Part shown: one piece after another, positions 5,965 through 61,765 of the stretch
Layout of the letters: the number at the start of each line of letters is the position of its first letter
How positions within the stretch are numbered: position 1 is the stretch's first letter
Assembly (NCBI RefSeq): GCF_030463535.1
Contig: NC_132878.1
Coordinates: 96,415,873 to 96,479,872, forward strand
Reading direction: 5' to 3'
DNA: 64,000 nt
DNA from: Salminus brasiliensis
Taxonomy: Eukaryota; Chordata; Actinopteri; Characiformes; Bryconidae
The notes under the pieces: model-generated
Seen by the model: the letters and a program-made list of their open reading frames with translations, nothing else
The model's database searches: none
What the model was told of the DNA's origin: nothing
Position numbers and translations under genes: made by a program

Positions 5965-6185
5965 GTATTTTAAAATAGAGTAAAATAATTTATTTGAAGA
6001 CTATTTATTTGTTTTGTATGCCATTTTAATTTATCGTTAAATGTTATATTTAAATATAATAAAATAATTTTTAAATAAATATATAATATTTAAATTTTTT
6101 AAAAATAATTTAGAAAAAAAGTCCAGCTTTCTCTGAGGGAGCTTTTTAAATGTGAATTTAGAAAATTAGGCTCGTCCCGCTTTGG

Positions 6186-6234
6186 GACTTTTATTTTGAA
6201 ATGCTTCGCTTTCCGGCAGCGTCTCATAACAAAC
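6186..6234 (+). promoter_or_regulatory. gpatch3 proximal promoter or 5' UTR with GACTTTTATTTTGAA motif
   Basis: GACTTTTATTTTGAA at 6186-6200 ends 35 bases before the gpatch3 ATG, followed by CGCTTTCCGGCAGCG, which contains an ETS-like CTTTCCGG core. The same 15-mer and close variants recur eight times upstream of sacm1l. A regulatory role is inferred from position and recurrence only. Confidence 0.4.
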
Positions 6235-9200
6235 ATGGCGGGCTGTGAGGAAGAAGGGGTGTACGTCGCTGTGAACAACATCCCGCCCCGGTTCCGATCC
6301 GCAGACCTGAGGAACTACTTTAGCCAGTTTACAGAGAGCGGAGGGTTCCTCTGCTTTCACTACCGGCACCGGCCGGAGGTCCGGGTGAACTCGGCCGAGT
6401 CCGGAGGGTCAAAGCAGCCCCCCCAGACAGACCCCCAGACCGACCCCCAGACAGACCCCCAGACCGCGGACAGAGGGCGGAGGGCGGAGGGGTCGTGCTG
6501 CTGTGTGGTGTGGGTGAAGGGTGGAGAGGCTGGCCGCTTTCTGAAGATGTATTCGGGGAACCAGTGGATCGACTCCCAGGGGAACTGGCTGGCCAAGCGC
6601 TGTGTCCTCCAGAGGGTCAAGCTGTCTGACCATGCAGGTGAGCAGGGTGGTCCAGCAGGGACAGGTGTCTCCTCTCCATTGAGATTGTGGGGGGTTTAGT
6701 CAGCCCAGGGTGGTCCAGCAGGTTTGGGACAGGTGTCTCCGGTGTCTCCATTGAGATTGTGGGGGGTTTAGTCAGCCCAGGGTGGTCCAGCAGGTTTGGG
6801 ACAGGTGTCTCCGGTGTCTCCATTGAGATTGTGGGGGGTTTAGTCAGCCCAGGGTGGTCCAGCAGGTTTGGGACAGGTGTCTCCGGTGTCTCCATTGAGA
6901 TTGTGGGGGGTTTAGTCAGCCCAGGGTGGTCCAGCAGGTTTGGGACAGGTGTCTCCGGTGTCTCCTCTCCATTGAGATTCTGGGGGGTTTAGTCAGCCCA
7001 GGGTGGTCCAGCAGGTTTGGGACAGGTGTCTCCTGTGTCTCCTCTCCATTGAGATTGTGGGGCGTTTAGTCAGCCCAGGGTGGTCCAGCAGGTTTGGGAC
7101 AGGTGTCTCCTGTGTCTCCTCTCCATTGAGAGTCTGGGGGGTTTAGTCAGCCCAGGGTGGTCCAGCAGGTTTGGGACAGGTGTCTCCTGTGTCTCCTCTC
7201 CATTGAGATTCTGGGGGGTTTAGTCAGCCCAGGGTGGTCCAGCAGGTTTGGGACAGGTGTCTCCTGTGTCTCCTCTCCATTGAGATTGTGGGGGGTTTAG
7301 TCAGCCCAGGGTGGTCCAGCAGGTTTGGGACAGGTGTCTCCTGTGTCTCCTCTCCATTGAGAGTCTGGGGGGTTTAGTCAGCCCAGGGTGGTCCAGCAGG
7401 TTTGGGACAGGTGTCTCCGGTGTCTCCTCTCCATTGAGATTCTGGGGCGTTTAGTCAGCCCAGGGTGGTCCAGCAGGTTTGGGACAGGTGTCTCCGGTGT
7501 CTCCTCTCCATTGAGATTCTGGGGGGTTTAGTCAGCCCAGGGTGGTCCAGCAGGTTTGGGACAGGTGTCTCCTGTGTCTCCTCTCCATTGAGATTCTGGG
7601 GGGTTTAGTCAGCCCAGGGTGGTCCAGCAGGTTTGGGACAGCAGCTACCAGATTCAGGTGTGGTAGGAGTGGATCTCCATGAACATGGACTGACCTGGAC
7701 TAGACCGGACTGTGATAGGCTTTCTCGAGTGGGCAGGGTCAGCTTTTCCATGGCTTCCCGCGGTCGTGCCGCCTCCCTTCTCCAGCCAGCTTAGCATTAG
7801 CTTTCAGCCTTTCTGCCTCACTTCTGTGTTCTCCTGAAGTCCTCGAAAGGCTTTCTCGGGTGGGCGGGGTTCATGTAAATTCCAAGTGGGCTCAACACAA
7901 CTAGGAATCTGTTACTGGGCAAATTTTACGCTTAATTCTACACTTACTTCCTAAATTCTGCTTATTTATTTATTTATATCCAATATTTACCCATTTTCTC
8001 CCCAATTTGGGCCGCCAGTTACCCAACTTGTAATAATCTATCCATCCTGGAGAGATCAAGGCCGATTGTGCTCTCTCAGGCCTTGGCTGGCGATGGCTAG
8101 CACCAGGATTCGAACCAGCGATCCTCTGCTGGACCACTCGGGGCCCCAAATGATGCTAATAGTTTCTGTAGTAAGCACTATTAAGAGCGTACACCCTAAG
8201 GCCCGGTTTCCCAGACAGGGATTAAGTCTCCATTGTAAGACAGATATAGTCCAGGACTAGTCTGGGAGACCAACCCTATGGGGCTGGAAGTTGAGAGGTG
8301 TAAAAATTAATTAATTAATTAAATTAAATTTAATTAATTAAAAAAAAAAAATATTATTTTTAAAATAATTATTTTATATTTTAAAAAAATATTTATTTTA
8401 TTAATTAATAGATTGACTGTTTTCTAAAATTGAATAAAAAAATCAGTATATCGCCTTAATATTAACCCCAGTATCGCATTATGCATCATAACGCCAGATT
8501 TAGAACAAACAGCCCAAACTTTAAGCTATTCCTCACTCTCATAACCACAGTTTTACATGTTTAATTGATAGTAATTAATTAATTAATTAATTAATAACCT
8601 GTAATAACCGAATATTACTCCCTCAGTCCTAATCCCTGTCTCCCTGTCTGTAGATCCCAATACCTTCCCATATAAAACGAAGGCCGAACTGAGGCGCCGG
8701 CCCGCGAGCTCCGACCGCTTCACCAAGGCGGACCTGAAGGCGCTGCCGGAGATGAACCCGCCCCCTCTCATGCCCAGGGGCAACGTGGGCACCCCTGTGA
8801 GTGTGTTCCTGCAGCTCATCCAGTCCTGCCGCCTGCCCCCCCGGCTCATCCGCAAACTCGGCCTCACCTTCCCCAAGACGGGCTCCCACCGTCGCTACGG
8901 CAACGTGCCCTACCAGTACCACAACAGCAGCAGCGTGGCGGCGGGGGCGAGCGAGGAGAGCGTGTTCACCGCGGGAGGAGCCGAGATCATCGGGCCTGGG
9001 GGCGTCCCTCCACCCAAAGCTACGGCTGAACCCAAGCCACGCCCATTCGGCCAACCTCCAATTGGGGGGGAGACACCAGAGGTGGAGAGTGAGGAGGACC
9101 AATCGGGACCTGATGATGTGAGTCAGATTGATTGGTGTGTAAATGGGAAGTGTGTGACTTTGGTTGGGGTGAAAAATGCTCAGATGCCTCAGAAGCCTGT

Positions 9201-12200
9201 TTACCACCCTGTTATTTTACCACCCTGTTATTTTACCACCCTGTTATTTTACCACCCTGTTATTTTACCACCCTGTTATTCCACCACATAATAAAACAGG
9301 CTGATTTTCCCTTTAAGGAGGACTCCTGGGATAACAACAGAGCTTTGCTTTTATTGGCTGGTTTATGTCACCACAAAAGCTCACAGGAGCAACGTAGCAT
9401 AGCATAGTCTAGCCTAGCCTAGCATAGCTTAGCATTGTAATAAGAAATCCACACCATGGTAATTATTTAATGTAATTACTCCCGACTTTTAATGGGGAGT
9501 GTTGCTGTCTTCTGGGTATTCTCTCAGCACGCTGGGTTAGCTTTTAGCCTTGCACCCGCTTACCAGCCTTACCAGCTTTTCCATGGCATCTCCCTTCTGC
9601 AGTCAACCTAGCATTAGCTTTTAGCCCTTTTTGCCTCACCTCTGTACTTCTGGATTTCTTTAATGTATAGTAATGGTGTGTGTGTGTGTGTGTTGTAGGA
9701 TGATGACCGCTGTGAGGAGTGGGAACGCCATGAGGCTCTTCATGAGGACGTGACGAGTCAGGAGCGCAGTAAGGAGCGGCTGTATGAGGAGGAGATCGAG
9801 CTGAAGTGGGAGAAAGGAGGGTCGGGGCTGGTCTTCTACACGGACGCTCAGTACTGGCAGGAGGAGGAGGGAGGTGCGGCACGCTTCTACTCTGCTTTAA
9901 CAGAAACAGACGTGTAGATGGATATATTTGTAGATACACTACGGGTCAAAAGTTTTAGAACACCCCCTTTTTCCAGTTGTTATTTAACCACTTAACTCTA
10001 CAAGGCTAAAATTCAGAGATCCTCTAATCTTAGACTCTACTAAACACAAGTCAATATGCAGACCATGATACTCTTCTCTTAACCTGAGTACTTTGAGATA
10101 AGGAGGGTCTTCAGTCTGGGTTTGAGGACAGCGAGCGTTGGACTCTGCTGTTCGGACACCCAGGGGAAGGTCGCTCCACCACTTCGGTGCAGGACAGAAA
10201 AAAGTCTGGACGCTCGTCTTCCGTGGATCTTAAAGGATGGCGGGTCGAGCCGAGCCGTACTTGAACACACTAAGGTGTATTACTCAGTAACTACAGGCAC
10301 ACGTTTTCAGAAAAAAAAGATCCTTTTAGAGACTGACCTTCTGACCTCTTACAGTCCAGAGGTCAGTGTGGGACCGTCGTATGATTAGGACAATATTTAA
10401 GACCAGAAAACCAGATGTTTGGAATTTTTTTATTAATGGAAAAAATAAATAAATAAAATAGAAAAAGAGAAACTTTGTAAGATTATTTTATTAAAAATGA
10501 AAAATTTAAAGTAACAAGTTAAGAAAAAATAGCTTAGTAGAATTTATTTTATGTGACTCCTCAACGAGATGTTGGCTGTAAAAGATTATTAGTATTATTT
10601 ATCCTACGAGAAACTGCAGGTAAACTTCATGTGGCAGCGTAATCGGTTTTCTTTATTATTTTTCTTTATTATAAATTATTGGATTTTTTTTACCCATGTT
10701 CTTCCCATCTACCCCCCCTGGAGGCCAGTTGTGCTCTCTCTGGGCCCCGGCTGCCGATGGCTAGCAGCATCCTCTGGTCACAGTGACCGCGCCTTAGTCT
10801 GCCGGACCACCCGGGGCCATTGATCATGATTTTAATGATGTGTAATAAGCAGTGCAGTGATCTGGGAATCGTGGGGCTGAGTCTCTTTCTCTTTTCCTCT
10901 GGGTAGATTTTGACGAGCAGACGGCGGACGACTGGGACGTGGACATGAGCGTGTACTACGACAAAGGTATGTTATCACCCGGCCTCCAAACAGAGCAGTC
11001 ATGTAGTGCTGCATTATGTTGTGGCCTCTGAAATGCTTCCAAACAGCTGAGCGTCTCGGGATTTTTGCGTCTTTTATACCTGAACTGAGGTGTGATGTTA
11101 GAGGGGAAAAAAACAAGGATTAAAGGATTCAAATTCATTTATTGTCATTTGCATTACATGTGAAACAAAACTGAGATCTCAAGGTCCCAGTTACACTCAA
11201 AGAACATTTATTAAATAATATATATATATTATTTATAAGTGTATATATAAGTGTGGACTTTAATTTTGGTATTTACCAAAATTATAAACGACCACCCTAC
11301 ATGATCAGTTTTTCTGTTTTTACTAGTTATAGGTGGTGTGTTTTTAAACAGAGTACTAACCTTTGAACTTTGAGAGCATTCAGAAATCACTATGGTGAAA
11401 TACTATATAAATAAAAACTATAAAATAATCACTCTATAATATAAACACTCTAAACACTTTTAATTAACACTTTATAAAATAAACACTATTAATACTATTA
11501 ATTAACACTTTATAAAATAAACACTCTGTAAACAAACACTATATAAAATAAACACTATATAAAATAAACACTATAAACAAACACTATATAAAAGAAACAC
11601 TATAAAATAAACTTTTAATTAACACTTTATAAAATAAACACTATTAATTAACACTTTATAAAATAAACACCATATAAAATAAACACTATTAATTAACACT
11701 TTATAAAATAAACACCATATAAAATAAACACTATTAATTAACACTTTTATAAAATAAACACTATTAATTAACACTTTTATAAAATAAACACTATTAATTA
11801 ACACTTTATAAAATAAACACCATATAAAATAAACACTATTAATTAACACTTTTATAAAATAAACACTATTAATTAACACTTTATAAAATAAACACCATAT
11901 AAAATAAACACTGTAAATAAACACTATAAAATAAACACTCTATAAACAAACACTATATAAAATAAACACTTTGTAAATAAACTTTTAATTAACACTTTAT
12001 AAAATAAACACCATTAATTAACACTATTAATTTACACTCTATTAATTAACACTCTAAATAAACACTCTATAAAATAAACCCTCTATTAATAAACACTCTA
12101 GAAATAAACACTATAAAATAAAAATCAGAAATAATAAACAAATCAGAAATACTTACATAAATGTACTTATATAAATTATATGAACATGGAAAATGATTGC

Positions 12201-44107: not shown

Positions 44108-44285
44108 ATTTTAATAGCCATGCCCAGAATATTACAAACCTTTAATCTTATAAAACTGACGATTATTTATTTAATTGTTTGTTTGTTTGTTTATTTGTTT
44201 GTTTGTTTATTTGTTTGTTTGTTTGTTTGTTTGTTTTCAGTTTGGCGCCCTTCTGGTGTAAACAGTGTTCTAGAACGCGGACGGG

Positions 44286-44290
44286 CCAAT
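44286..44290 (+). promoter_or_regulatory. CCAAT box upstream of the protease homologue
   Basis: GGCCAATCAGAGCG in a locally CpG-rich stretch, 62 bases upstream of the ATG at 44352. This matches the NF-Y site consensus and supports 44352 being close to a real 5' end. Confidence 0.5.
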
Positions 44291-44351
44291 CAGAGCGCAG
44301 CGCGGTTTAACCGTCACCGGGCTCGTTGTCTGGCTGCTCTGGGGGGCAGCG

Positions 44352-47300
44352 ATGGTCCGAGGCCTGCAGGTGTTTGTTGGGGGGATTCTGGTGCTGATGG
44401 TGGTCTTTGTGTATTTGGGGGTGAAAGAGGAGCCGGTGAGACCCGAGTGTGAGTTCACTGCTCTCTGTACCTCACCAGCCTCGCCTCAGACACCTCCGCT
44501 TAGCTTCAACAGAGCAGAGCTTAGCTTAGCTTAGCTTAGCTTAGCTTAGCTTAGCTTATCTTAGCTTATCTTAGCTTTGTTTAGCTTATCTTAGCTTATC
44601 TTAGCTTAGCTTAGCTTAGCTTAGCTTAGCTTATCTTAGCTTATCTTAGCTTTGTTTAGCTTATCTTAGCTTATCTTAGCTTAGCTTAGCTTAGCTTAGC
44701 TTATCTTAGCTTAGTTTAGCTTAGTTTAGCTTATCTTAGCTTATCCTAGCTTAGCTTAGCTTAGCTTAGCTTATCTTAGCTTTGTTTAGCTTATCTTAGC
44801 TTATCTTAGCTTAGTTTAGCTTAGCTTAGCTTATCTTAGCTTAGTTTAGCTTATCTTAGCTTATCCTAGCTTAGCTTAGCTTATCTTAGCTTATCTTAGC
44901 TTTGTTTAGCTTATCTTAGCTTATCTTAGTTTAGCTTAGCTTATCTTAGCTTATCTTAGCTTATCTTAGTTTAGCTTAGCTTGGCTTAGTTTAGTTTAGC
45001 TTCGCTTGGCTTAGTGTAGTTTAGCTTAGCTTATCTTAGCTTATCTTAGTTTAGCTTAGCTTGGCTTAGTTTAGTTTTGCTTATCTTAGCATATCTTAGT
45101 GTAGTTTAGCTTAGCTTGTCTTAGCTTAGCTTAGCTTAGCTTAGTTTAGTTTTGCTTATCTTAGCTTATCTTAGTTTAGCTTAGCTTGGCTTAGTTTAGT
45201 TTAGCTTCGCTTAGCATATCTTAGTGTAGTTTAGCTTAGCTTGTCTTAGCTTAGCTTAGCTTAGTTTAGCTTAGTTTAGCTTGGCTTAGCTTAGCTTGGC
45301 TTAGTGTTGTTTAGCTTAGCTTGTCTTAGCTTAGCCTATCTTAGCTTAGTTTTGCTTAGCTTAGCATGTCTTAGTGTAGTTTAGCTTAGCTTGTCTTAGC
45401 TTAGCTTAGCTTAGTTTAGCTTAGTTTAGCTTGGCTTAGCTTAGCTTGGCTTAGTGTAGTTTAGCTTAGCTTATCTTAGTTTTGCTTATCTTAGCATATC
45501 TTAGTTTAGCTTAGCTTAGCTTATCTTAGCTTATCTTAGCTTGGCTTGGTTTAGTTTAGTTTAGTTGAGTTGAGTTGAGTTGAGTTTAGCTTAGCTTAGC
45601 TTGGCTTAGTTTGGTTGTTTGTTGCAGGTTTCAGGATGTTCCAGGATGCTGGTGTTATTAAATATGAATTATTTTACTATTTCTAACTATAACAACTAAT
45701 TCTTTTAAATGGTAAATTTAGTATCTGTAGCTATATTTTCGGTGAATTTGCTTTAGTGTTTGAAAATAATCAAATGCGAATTATTGTCTTCACATTTTAA
45801 TGCAGTATCTCTAAATAAAGTCTTTAGCTGCTTTATTAAAGTTACCAGCTACTTAATTTCAAGGAAGCAGTTATTTCGAGATGAGTTATGTGTAAATGTT
45901 AAATATAAATAGCATTTAAATAATATTTCATAAATATTATATCTACATTTGTATGTAATGGTTGTTATTATTTTGACGCTGTAAGTTTTAAGTTTGAGTT
46001 TAAATATTGAACAATCTTCCTATTTTAATAAGAAATAATATCTATCATTATAAGATATGTTGAAATAATCTTTTTAAAGTAGTAACGCAAAAATAAGAAC
46101 ATTATGATTTGTAATAAGTTTAAGTATTGAAAAATCTTAAAGTATATTTATAAATGATATAATGTTTAAATAATGTATTTCATTAATTCATGTTATTATT
46201 TCCACATTGTAAGTCTTCACTTTGAGATACTAACTTAAAATAATGACTAATTAAAAGTACAGTATTTATTTCAAGATTGGGTAATGTTCAAAAGTCTTTA
46301 AATACTATTTTAATAATGTTTAAATAATAACTATCGTTAGAAGTAGTTATTTCGACATACTAACACTAACATAAGGACTTAAAGAACATTATAAGTTTAA
46401 ATATTGATTTCTTAAATAATATTTTAATAATGTTTAAATAATATATTTCATTCATTCATGTTATTTCAACATAAGTCATTGCTTTGAGATACTAACTTAC
46501 AATAATTACTTATTAAAATAAGTATTTATTTCAAGATTTCAAATGTTAATGTTAAAAAGTCCTTAAATACTATTTTAAATAATATGTGTAAATAATATTT
46601 TTTATTAAAAGTTATTATTTCGACATCATAAGTCATTATTTTGAGTAATTCACAATAATGGCTTAAAGAAAATTATTTTGAGCAAGATTACGTTTAAATG
46701 TTGAGAAATCTTGAAATAATATTTCTGAAATATTGAATGAAATTATTCATTATTACAAAATAATGAATACAAAATATTAATGCTACTTTGGAAAGCCATC
46801 TATTCTCCAATGTCTGCTTTACAGGGCTGCTAGCTCTCCACAACATGGGTCTAATATGCAGTAAATGTAAAGTTTAAATGAATATATCAGTGCTATGTAA
46901 AATAAAATAAAATAAAATAAAATAAAGTACATAAACTCAGAAATCAGAAAGCAGCACCTAGAAATAATAACTAGAAAAGTCCAAGAAAGTCATTTTTACA
47001 TTTTAAATATTATTAATGGTGACAAAATATTGAAATAATATTTTAATGATTTTTAAAAATTATTATTATTATTATTTCTTTATTGTAAGTCATTACTTTG
47101 AGATAATTCCTCTGTATTTATTGATCATATAGGAATTATAGAGATTCAATGTTAGAAAAAAGAAATGGCTGAATCTCTTATTATTCAGCTTCTAACTGGA
47201 GATTTATCATTAAACGTCTGGATGTTCAGCTTTTATTAGGATCTTAGTCCTGAATCAGCAGGTTTAAGGCCGGTTACACAGAGACTGGTAGCTGTATGTA

Positions 47301-47613
47301 AGGAGTGCTGGTTGGTGGGTCCGCTGAGCTCCAGCCTGATCTTGTGGCTCTTACAGTGGAGTGTGGAAGGAAACCAGCGAGGCCGGAGAGGGAGAAGCGT
47401 CTGGTCGGAGGAACCGATGTCTCTGCTGGCGTCTGGCCGTGGCACGTGGCCGTTCTTCACCGGCCTAATTCATCAGCCCCGTTCAGGCATCACTGTGAGG
47501 GAACCATCATTGGCAGGATGTGGGTGGTTTCAGCTGCGGCGTGTTTCTACAGTGAAGAGCATGTGTGAGGAGACCTTCATTGATTCTGCGTTCTTCTATA
47601 TGTGTGTGTTTGT

Positions 47614-47646
<33 letters not shown>

Positions 47647-47697
47647 TTTGGACTAAGTTGGGGTTTAAGTGTTGCCTAATCAATGTTAACACTCAGA

Positions 47698-47732
<35 letters not shown>

Positions 47733-50700
47733 GTGTATATATACTGTATGCATAGTGTTTGTATAGTGTAGGTATAGAGTATGCATAAAATATGTTTAGT
47801 GTATGTATAGGGTATGTATATTGTGTGTATAACATGTGTATAGCATATGAATAGAGTTTGTAGTGTGTGTATAGAGTATGTATAGATTATAGAGTGTGTA
47901 TAAGGTGTGTGTATAGAGTATGTATATTGTGTGTGTATAGTGTATGTATAGAGAAAGTAGCGTGTGTATATAGTGTATGTGTAGTGTGTGTGTATAGTGT
48001 ATGTTTAGAATATTGTGTGTATAGCTTATGTATAAGAGTATGTAGTGTGTGTATAGTGTATGTGTAGTGTGTGTATAAGGTGTGTGTATAGAGTATGTAT
48101 AATGTGTGTATAGTGTGTGTATAGATTATATAGTGTGTATAAGGTGTGTATAGAGTATGTATAGTGTGTGTATAGATTATAGAGTATGTATAGTGTGTGT
48201 ATAGAGTATGTACAGTGTGTGCATAGATTATAGAGTATGTAGTGTGTGTATAGTGTATGTGTAGTGTGTGTATAAGGTGTGTGTATAGAGTATGTATAAT
48301 GTGTGTATAGTGTGTGTATAGATTATATAGTGTGTATAAGGTGTGTATAGAATATGTACAGTGTGTGCATAGATTATAGAGTATGTATAGTGTATGTATA
48401 AGATAAGATAAGATAGTCCTTTATTAGTCCCACAGTGGGGAAATTCACAATGTTTTATAGAATGTTGTATAGATCATAGAGTGTGTATAAGGTGTGTATA
48501 GAGTATGTATAGTGTGTGTATAGTGTATGTATAGATTATATAGTGTGTATAAGGTGAGTGTATAGAGTATGTATAGTGTATGTATAGATTATAGAGTGTG
48601 TATAAAGTGTGTGTATAGTGTATGTGTAGATTATAGAGTGTGTATAAGGTGTGTGAATAGTGTATGTATAGATTATAGAGTGTGTATGAGGTGTGTGTAT
48701 AGAGTATGTATAGTGTGTGTATAGAGTATGTATAGATTATAGAGTGTGTATAAGGTGTGTGTATAGAGTATGTATAGTGTGTGTATAGAGTATGTATAGA
48801 TTATAGAGTGTGTATAAGGTGTGTGTATAGAGTATGTATAGTGTGTGTATAGAGTATGTATAGATTATAGAGTGTGTATAAGGTGTGTGTATAGAGTATG
48901 TATAGTGTGTGTATAGAGTATGTATAGATTATAGAGTGTGTATAAGGTGTGTGTATAGAGTATGTATAGTGTGTGTATAGTGTATGTATAGATTATAGAG
49001 TGTGTATAAGGTATATGTATAGTGTATGTATGGATTATAGAGTGTGTATAAGGTGTATAATATGCACCTACCTTTTCCCCTTTTGATTTGACTCGTGTTG
49101 CTTCTCTCCTCTCAGGATCAGAAGTAACCTCATAGTGAAAGCTGGAGCAGGGAATCTGAAAGCTGACGAGCCCGAGACCCAGACTGTGGAAATCGCTCAG
49201 ATCATCCGACACAAAGACTTCAATCCCATCTCCTTACAAAACAACATCGCCCTCCTCAGACTGAGCGCCCCTCTGAAGTTCAGCGACGCTGTTTATGACG
49301 TCTGCATCCCAGACGAGTTTACAGGCAGGCACTCCTTCACAGACTGCCACATCACTGGCTACAACAAACTCGGAATTCTTCAGGAGGGATCTGTGGAGCA
49401 AATTCCCAGATTAAAGTGCAACATGCGAACATGGTGGAACTTCAGAGTCACCACTGACATGATTTGTGCCGGCCAGTACGGAGGAGGAACGGACGGTTGT
49501 AAGGTAGTGTTTCGTTTTTAGTCTCAGTTATTATTATTTTTAATTGACAGTAGACTGTGTTTATACAGTATAACATCCTTCATACATTTATGAGTGTCCT
49601 AGAACATCAGACTCTGTGTATCTGGTCATGGTTGAATAATGAGAGGTCAGTAGATGGAGGAGACAAACCGTGGCCCTTAAACACTGCTGTTCCTCCTTCA
49701 GAAGAACCTCCAGCAGAACCAGGACAGAGCTGAAAAACAAGCCAGTTCCTAAACCCCAAAACTGTTACATCACAGTCTTGACTTGTCATATTTACCCCAC
49801 CAACATTTACATGAACCTCGTCCACAAGATAAAGCTCTAGTCAAAGCTGGAGTAGCTGTAAAATGTGAGGGTGACCTCAGGAGAATATGGTGGTGTTGAC
49901 ATTTGAGAGCAGCTCATCATTTCCTGACTCTGTTATTATGTAAAATAACAGGGTGGTAAAATCAGTGTGTTTAGTTCTGAGGTAAAATAACAGGGTGGTA
50001 AAATCAGTGTGTTTTATTCTGAGGTAAAATAACAGGGTGGTAAAATCAGTGTGTTTTATTCTGAGGTAAAATAACAGGGTGGTAAAATCAGTGTGTTTAG
50101 TTCTGAGGTAAAATAACAGGGTGGTAAAATCAGTGTGTTTAGTTCTGAGGTAAAATAACAGGGTGGTAAAATCAGTGTGTTTTATTATAAGGTAAAATAA
50201 CAGGGTGGTAAAATCTGTGTGTTTTATTCTGGGGTAAAATAACAGGGTGGTAAAATCAGTGTGTTTTATTATAAGGTAAAATAACAGGGTGTTAAAATCA
50301 GTGTGTTTTATTCGGAGGTAAAATAACAGGGTGTTAAAATCAGTGTGTTTTATTCGGAGGTAAAATAACAGGGTGGTAAAATCAGTGTGTTTTATTCTGA
50401 GGTAAAATAACAGGGTGGTAAAATCAGTGTGTTTTATTCTGAGGTAAAATAAGAGGGTGGTAAAATCAGTCTGTTTTATTTTGGGGTAAAATAACAGGGT
50501 GGTAAAATCAGTGTTTAATTTGGAGGTAAAGTAACAGGGTGGTAAAATTACTATTTATACATCAAACAATAACTTACACAGTCAGTAAATATTTATACGT
50601 CTCCAGTCATAATTAGCAGCTCAGATTGCAGATGAAATTTAAGTAAACCTCTCTGTTTGCTCTCGTCTCGTTTACAGATTAATATCGGAGGCCCTCTGAC

Positions 50701-50845
50701 GTGTCTCCTGCCTCTGCAGCAGAGATACTACATTTCTGGAATCCGAATTGTCGGGGATTTGTGTGGTGTACCCAGACGACCCAATATTTACCTGAACACC
50801 ATGCAATACTATCTGTGGTTGGAGAAATATTTGATGGCCAGTTAA
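44352..50845 (+). CDS. Trypsin-fold serine protease homologue lacking the catalytic triad
   Basis: Four exons: 44352-44448, 47357-47564, 49116-49503 and 50678-50845 (TAA), 286 aa, all with in-frame GT-AG junctions. Residues 7-23 are hydrophobic (signal peptide or type II anchor). A propeptide ECGRKPARPEREKR precedes LVGG, the chymotrypsin-fold N-terminus (Leu48 for the usual Ile16). His57 is Ala94 (SAAACF for TAAHCF). Asp102 is Asn145 (NNIALL). Gly193-Asp194-Ser195 are Ile232-Asn233-Ile234 (CKINIGGPLTC). The S1-site Asp189 is kept as Asp228, as are the Cys42-Cys58 pair (Cys79, Cys95) and the Cys1-type and Cys122-type cysteines (PECG-like and DVCIP). No stop or frameshift is present. It cannot be a conventional peptidase; a binding or decoy role is inferred. 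Mammalian relatives with altered triads exist (for example PRSS50), and the PRSS cluster lies in the same human region as SACM1L and ELP6. Confidence 0.87.
44510..45605. repeat. (TTAGC)n / TTATCTTAGC satellite, protease homologue intron 1
   Basis: About 1.1 kb of the pentamer AGCTT/TTAGC with interspersed 10-bp TTATCTTAGC and TTAGTTTAGC variants. It begins about 60 bases into intron 1 (44449-47356). Confidence 0.97.
45660..47120. repeat. Diverged ~170-bp AT-rich tandem repeat, intron 1
   Basis: The recurring string is TAAGTCATTACTTTGAGATA-like, followed by AAATAAT and TTTAAATAATATTTCATTA (near 46205, 46465, 46625 and 47090). The copies are heavily diverged, so this is an old repeat. A run of AAATA at 46900-46925 is included. 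Confidence 0.55.
47600..49060. repeat. TGTATAG-based minisatellite, protease homologue intron 2
   Basis: A (GT)n start is followed by units such as GTATAGAGTATGTATAGTGT plus AGATTATAGAGTGTGTATAA. Around 48660-48990 the period is about 62 bp and very regular. A retroposon tail (48404-48455) interrupts it. Confidence 0.93.
49936..50545. repeat. 42-bp minisatellite, array 1 (protease homologue intron 3)
   Basis: About 14 units of GGTAAAATAACAGGGTGGTA plus AAATCAGTGTGTTTTATTCT and GA, 130 bases upstream of exon 4. Confidence 0.95.
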
Positions 50846-51305: not shown

Positions 51306-52044
51306 TGGTAAAATAACAGGGTGGTAAAATCAGTGTGTTTTATTCGGAGGTAAAATAACAGGGTGGTAAAATCAGTGTGTTTTATTCGGAGGTAAAATAA
51401 CAGGGTGGTAAAATCAGTGTGTTTTATTCTGGGGTAAAATAACAGGGTGGTAAAATCAGTGTGTTTTGTTCTGAGGTAAAATAACAGGGAGGTAAAATCA
51501 GTGTGTTTTATTCTGGGGTAAAATAACAGGGTGGTAAAATCAGTGTGTTTTATTCTGGGGTAAAATAACAGGGTGGTAAAATCAGTGTGTTTTATTCTGG
51601 GGTAAAATAACAGGGTGGTAAAATCTGTGTGTTTTATTCTGGGGTAAAATAACAGGGTGGTAAAATCAGTGTGTTTTTTCTGAGGTAAAATAACAGGGTG
51701 GTAAAATCAGTGTGTTTTATTCTGAGGTAAAATAACAGGGTGGTAAAATCAGTGTGTTTTATTCTGAGGTAAAATAACAGGGTGGTAAAATCAGTGTGTT
51801 TAGTTCTGAGGTAAAATAACAGGGTGGTAAAATCAGTGTGTTTTATTCTGAGGTAAAATAATAGGGTGGTAAAATCAGTGTGTTTTATTATAAGGTAAAA
51901 TAACAGGGTGGTAAAATCAGTGTGTTTTATTATGAGGTAAAATAACAGGGTGGTAAAATCAGTGTGTTTTATTCTGAGGTAAAATAACAGGGTGGTAAAA
52001 TCAGTGTGTTTTATTCTGAGGTAAAATAACAGGGTGGTAAAATC
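51306..52044. repeat. 42-bp minisatellite, array 2 (downstream of the protease homologue)
   Basis: About 17 units identical in kind to array 1. Exon 4 and the 3' UTR sit between the two arrays. Confidence 0.95.
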
Positions 52045-52199
52045 AATAATAATAAACAACTCATTCTACTAATGTTTTTAAAATGTTTCATTCACAGCAT
52101 TATAGAAGCAAACCTGACCCAGGCTTCTCTACATAAACACAATCATAACCTTCAGTCGACCTCAGTTTTCATTTGTGTGGAGTTCTGTGTTTTCAGCCC

Positions 52200-53648: not shown

Positions 53649-61765
<8,117 letters not shown>

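Follow-up and report, generated by a model that had tools for sequence, protein, structure and literature searches.

PRSS37, a mammalian testis serine protease homologue, has lost its catalytic triad, and additional domains stand at the N-terminus of HGF, MST1, haptoglobin and protein Z; in haptoglobin, a complement-control (sushi) domain precedes the protease-like domain. According to sections of PMC13194640, these last four proteins and PRSS23 employ the trypsin fold for binding and not for cutting. In its discussion, that article classes serine pseudoproteases as ligands, cofactors or scaffolds, and the region of the pseudo-active site is described as binding the receptor in both HGF and MST1. 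Reports on PRSS37 describe interactions with ADAM3, PDILT and CALR3 and a requirement for it in ADAM3 processing in mice, and a role as a chaperone has been suggested (passages of PMC10349139). TMPRSS12, a vertebrate testis protease, has in turn been reported to affect ADAM3 maturation in mice; it is a type 1 protein with a C-terminal membrane segment, and its HDS triad is conserved among mammals (passages of PMC7401031). Serine pseudoproteases are already known as a kind, and the fish gene described here makes a good example, though one with precedents, whose main interest is the completeness of its active-site loss. Among the papers listed on TMPRSS12, fish or serine pseudoproteases, none described a fish gene of this kind; since subscription papers and gene databases lie outside that scope, an annotation of the gene, perhaps as TMPRSS12-like, may exist already.

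The gene lies in a 64-kb stretch of the Salminus brasiliensis genome (the window; C1:96415873-96479872 of 1.07 Gb in 103 contigs). Judged from its sequence, it is best explained as a single-copy S1A pseudoprotease, a paralogue much diverged from a TMPRSS12-like protease with intact catalytic motifs in the same genome, that has probably been kept for a non-catalytic job, a reading to which we give a probability of about 0.75. Its four exons join into 861 nt, comprising 286 codons and a stop, through three introns that are all GT-AG with phases 1, 2 and 0 (Table 1). Frame 0 of the joined coding sequence is open, with 14 and 9 stops in frames 1 and 2, which bears out the original prediction of an open, spliceable four-exon gene. 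A donor at 44437, which would end exon 1 at 44436, was dropped because the reading frame continues into exon 2 from the GTGAGT donor at 44449 alone. The CCAAT box and the AATAAA that had been predicted were both located, and the former may act as a promoter element of the gene.

Table 1. Features of the pseudoprotease gene, in window coordinates
Feature	Position	Strand	Remarks
CCAAT box	44286..44290	+	66 nt 5' of the ATG; GC-richer stretch 44250-44460 (59% GC)
Exon 1	44352..44448	+	start codon; hydrophobic segment, residues 6-24; ends in phase 1 with a GTGAGT donor
Exon 2	47357..47564	+	C35 (Cys1); basic site REKR47↓LVGG; C79 (Cys42); Ala94 at His57; C95 (Cys58); ends in phase 2
Exon 3, 388 nt	49116..49503	+	Asn145 at Asp102; shortened 140s loop; D228 (Asp189) kept; ends in phase 0
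Exon 4	50678..50845	+	INIGGP for GDSGGP; IV for SW (214-215); Asn267 for Gly226; stop codon
ATTAAA	50883	+	sequence reading
AATAAA	51054..51059	+	candidate polyadenylation signal, by sequence position

The surroundings of the gene are rich in repeats. Much of the early part of intron 1 consists of an array of the unit AGCTTAGCTT (about 1.1 kb, 44518-45609), and a 42-bp minisatellite unit occurs in the last intron (49940-50548) and again just downstream of the gene (51307-52045). Farther downstream lie a long open frame that encodes transposase domains of the Sleeping Beauty/Tc1 type (58175-59242, +) and exons of ELP6 (Elongator complex protein 6; 59696-60864, +; Pfam PF09807, 1.4e-23 for the best of three matching frames), and a UnaL2 LINE 3' element was also detected. 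At the other end of the window, two frames that we take to resemble GPATCH3 (6109-6696 and 8608-9288, +) gave no Pfam match across 6109-9288, and a 77-bp repeat array at 6664-7641 lies between them.

The 286-aa product matches the Pfam Trypsin domain at 5.3e-36 over residues 49-279, with a below-cutoff DUF1986 as the only other domain, and its best match among 525 distinct PDB chains is factor XI (5.1e-36). The Trypsin profile together with the standard disulphide cysteines identifies it as a homologue of the S1A (chymotrypsin/trypsin) proteases. Ten cysteines are kept, which correspond in position to five standard pairs (35-165, 79-95, 179-240, 203-219 and 230-260, paired by homology), as are Asp189 (D228), Gly196-Gly197 and Gly216, so the predicted retention of the structural cysteines and Asp189 holds. 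Unlike HGF, MST1, haptoglobin and protein Z, the protein has no extra domain by Pfam, and haptoglobin itself was ruled out as its identity by the missing sushi domain. Residues 6-24, whose hydropathy averages 2.46 over 19 residues, are by motif a probable signal peptide or signal anchor; the best 19-residue hydropathy at the C-terminus is 0.42, and the type 1 topology of TMPRSS12, with its C-terminal membrane segment, is absent. There is a single N-glycosylation sequon (NSS at N70) and a single furin-type motif, REKR47↓LVGG, where the closest relative in the genome, a gene on C14 discussed below, has GSR↓ILGG.

All three residues of the catalytic triad are replaced, His57 by A94 (GCG), Asp102 by N145 (AAC) and Ser195 by I234 (ATC), and Gly193 and Asp194 have become I232 (ATT) and N233 (AAT). 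These residues and codons confirm the replacements originally listed; the damage, however, is wider than that list, extending to Gly43 (E80), Trp141-Gly142 (Y184-N185), Ser214-Trp215 (I255/V256) and Gly226 of the S1 pocket (N267), as well as to the 140s loop, which has 7 residues fewer than in the C14 relative. An intron present in the C14 gene at this loop is also absent: exon 3 covers two exons of the relative, so one intron is missing from the pseudoprotease gene. With the triad and Gly193 gone, the product lacks the defining residues of an active S1A peptidase, and activation by cleavage followed by an Ile/Leu16-Asp194 bridge likewise fails, for REKR↓LVGG is present but Asp194 is N233. Among the 24 in-genome relatives, Asp102, Gly193, Asp194 and Ser214 occur in 24 of 24, His57 in 21 and Ser195 in 20. 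Partial loss of the triad is seen in protease-like domains at three other loci of the genome, C5:25143447 (L009, AAIN and GDSGG), C5:15825919 (L015, AASN and GDAGG) and C17:30669214 (L014, AGRN and GDAGG), all three of which keep Asp102.

A protein search of the fish's own genome, in which 136 of 156 candidates were scored and 53 matches obtained, found no second copy, duplicate or allelic, at that sensitivity. Besides the gene's own exons it returned only pieces of 25-52% identity, which speaks against a recent duplicate or allelic copy. The fetched loci formed 38 gene groups, the window gene included, and the 25 with at least 195 residues, again counting the window gene, were kept. The closest of the 24 relatives (34.6% identity over 257 positions, E 2.5e-51 in a two-sequence comparison) is the C14 gene, at about 7.176-7.182 Mb, which we take to be TMPRSS12-like. 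It has AAHC, NDVAL and GDSGG intact and a C-terminal hydrophobic tail, the layout reported for TMPRSS12 in passages of PMC7401031. The C14 gene is like the pseudoprotease gene in its Trypsin domain and in its phase 2 and phase 0 introns, at the same places by eye; it is unlike it in its intact motifs, its hydrophobic tail, its single-Arg activation site and its domain spread over four exons (the first exon was not sought). Kinship with TMPRSS12 itself is suggested through the C14 gene: both proteins consist of one S1A domain plus a hydrophobic segment, although that of the pseudoprotease is N-terminal and its triad is gone. PRSS37 is likewise an S1A relative, a mammalian one, and the likeness is drawn without a claim of orthology. 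In humans, SLC11A2, ATF1 and DIP2B are neighbours of TMPRSS12.

In an in-genome tree of 25 rows, none of them a named TMPRSS12, the C14 gene and the pseudoprotease are sisters with support of 99/96. Their branches measure 0.54 and 2.67 respectively (the latter 2.45 with the correct C14 junction), and because the pseudoprotease branch is the second longest in the tree, its placement is not secure. It is conceivable, if rather doubtful, that the pseudoprotease did not arise from a TMPRSS12-like protease but from another S1A branch, for instance that of the C1:76.04 Mb gene, and that it acts in blood, egg or epithelium instead of the male germ line. Exon 2 alone matches the C1:76.04 Mb gene better by E-value (1.1e-7, 41%) than it does C14 (2.8e-6, 36%); the tree takes in 25 of the 38 gene groups, and the fetched loci do not exhaust the Trypsin matches of the genome, of which there are at least 173 counted exon by exon. 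Grouping with the C1:76.04 Mb gene also kept a p-AU of 0.062 when the C14 row differed by a few residues at one junction. With the correct junction, however, the value is 0.0089 and the grouping is rejected, and it is the C14 gene that has the highest overall identity, the 99/96 support, and the C-x11-G spacing after GGPL and CN.R.W that it shares by eye with the pseudoprotease. Groupings with the genes at C18:16.33, C26:30.37 and C4:38.07 Mb were rejected, with p-AU values of 0.003, 0.0007 and 0.029 computed with the slightly differing C14 row; the alternative groupings were named after inspection of the tree.

The pattern of conservation bears on whether the gene is constrained or decaying. 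Thirty-nine columns are at least 80% conserved among the 24 in-genome relatives (chymotrypsin numbering assigned by the analyst), and the pseudoprotease keeps 25 of them and replaces 14 (E80, A94, F137, N145, D163, I166, N185, I232, N233, I234, I255, N267, T272 and L279). The columns judged structural are kept in 25 of 30 cases and those judged to belong to the active site in 0 of 9, a set picked post hoc; the five changes outside it are Y137F, P163D, L166I, V272T and I279L. Fisher's test of active-site against other conserved columns gives p = 9.2e-4 for a strict six and 9.4e-6 for the nine, chosen after the data were seen, and p = 4.1e-3 with the inclusion of four near-site positions that were retained. 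If the ancestral catalytic codons are assumed to be CAY, GAY, GGN, GAY and AGY, at least 8 of 11 nondegenerate nucleotides have changed, three for His57 to GCG and two for Gly193 to ATT. An exact neutral two-rate substitution model, started from the modern coding sequence and run at two kappa values and 11 distances (22 settings), puts the chance of a stop-free frame at 0.18-0.21 for 0.05 changes per site, 4-6e-3 for 0.2 and 0.7-1.3e-4 for 0.5, and the chance of at least 8 of 11 changes at 4e-9, 8-9e-5 and 1.3-1.5e-2 for the same distances. Over all 22 settings, the joint chance of both is at most 1.9e-6; a 4,000-fold simulation with indels gives a maximum of 1.4e-6, with a resolution floor of about 1 in 4,000 at larger distances. 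The catalytic changes are thus very unlikely to be those of a neutral, free-running pseudogene, and the frame seems to have been maintained during remodelling of the active site; whether selection at that site was relaxed or positive is not distinguished by the model.

These figures weigh against a unitary pseudogene in early decay, in which a dispensable enzyme would still have its frame open by chance. The long branch, the intron and 7 residues missing relative to the C14 gene, and the five conserved columns changed beyond the active site would fit such decay, but the survival of ten cysteines, of the splice sites of three introns and of 25 of 30 structural conserved positions would not, and we consider it improbable. 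Column pattern and neutral model together point instead to a long-standing, structurally constrained pseudoprotease and not a decaying gene, as had been proposed, with constraint deduced from a single genome. The gene has the attributes of a serine pseudoprotease, namely an S1 fold, catalytic loss and maintenance, the last as far as neutral model and column test show within that genome, and it probably encodes an expressed protein with a non-catalytic function. That its product retains or regains activity, through an unusual mechanism or an alternative exon, is scarcely credible. Such activity would be in keeping with the retained Asp189, Gly196-Gly197 and Gly216, but the protein has lost its nucleophile, base, acid and oxyanion glycine, and Gly226 is Asn. 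Furthermore, a six-frame scan of the window yielded zero GD[SAT]GG, AAHC or ND[IVL]AL motifs, and looser GD[SAT]G matches were none of them in a serine-protease context; the alternative exon 4 with GDSGG, named beforehand as counter-evidence, was not found in this motif scan.

Because the cutting machinery is lost and the trypsin-like shape is kept, the most likely mode of action of the pseudoprotease is binding to other proteins, as in several known pseudoproteases; its furin site, topology and binding role are suggested by motifs. The N-terminal hydrophobic segment would direct the product into the secretory pathway, to be either secreted or anchored as a type II protein, and a furin-like protease may cleave REKR↓LVGG to give two chains joined by Cys35-Cys165. 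Since Asn at 194 makes a bridge from residue 16 to Asp194 impossible, we propose that a zymogen-like state persists. Without nucleophile, base, acid or oxyanion glycine the protein would not cut, and the aliphatic residues at 193, 195, 214 and 215 could make the old cleft a hydrophobic surface for the binding or packing of a partner protein. Given that HGF and MST1 bind their receptors through the pseudo-active-site region, the same face is the foremost candidate site for binding a partner. The effects of mouse TMPRSS12 and PRSS37 on ADAM3 make a role in gametes the leading guess, at low confidence; by kinship with these two proteins, reproduction would be the most likely setting, but that is only a guess. 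A more specific version, which we put forward tentatively, is that of a fish-lineage pseudoprotease derived from a TMPRSS12-type germ-line protease, its catalytic and zymogen-activation apparatus replaced, its cleft made aliphatic and its activation site turned into one of furin type, which would serve as a constitutively processed two-chain binding protein, for instance a gamete recognition or chaperone factor like PRSS37.

Taken together, the gene could show how a protease fold becomes a binding protein, as the whole catalytic machinery has been lost while the cysteines and most structural positions are kept, and a relative with intact motifs is present in the same genome. It is also a gene that homology-based annotation could wrongly label as an enzyme.
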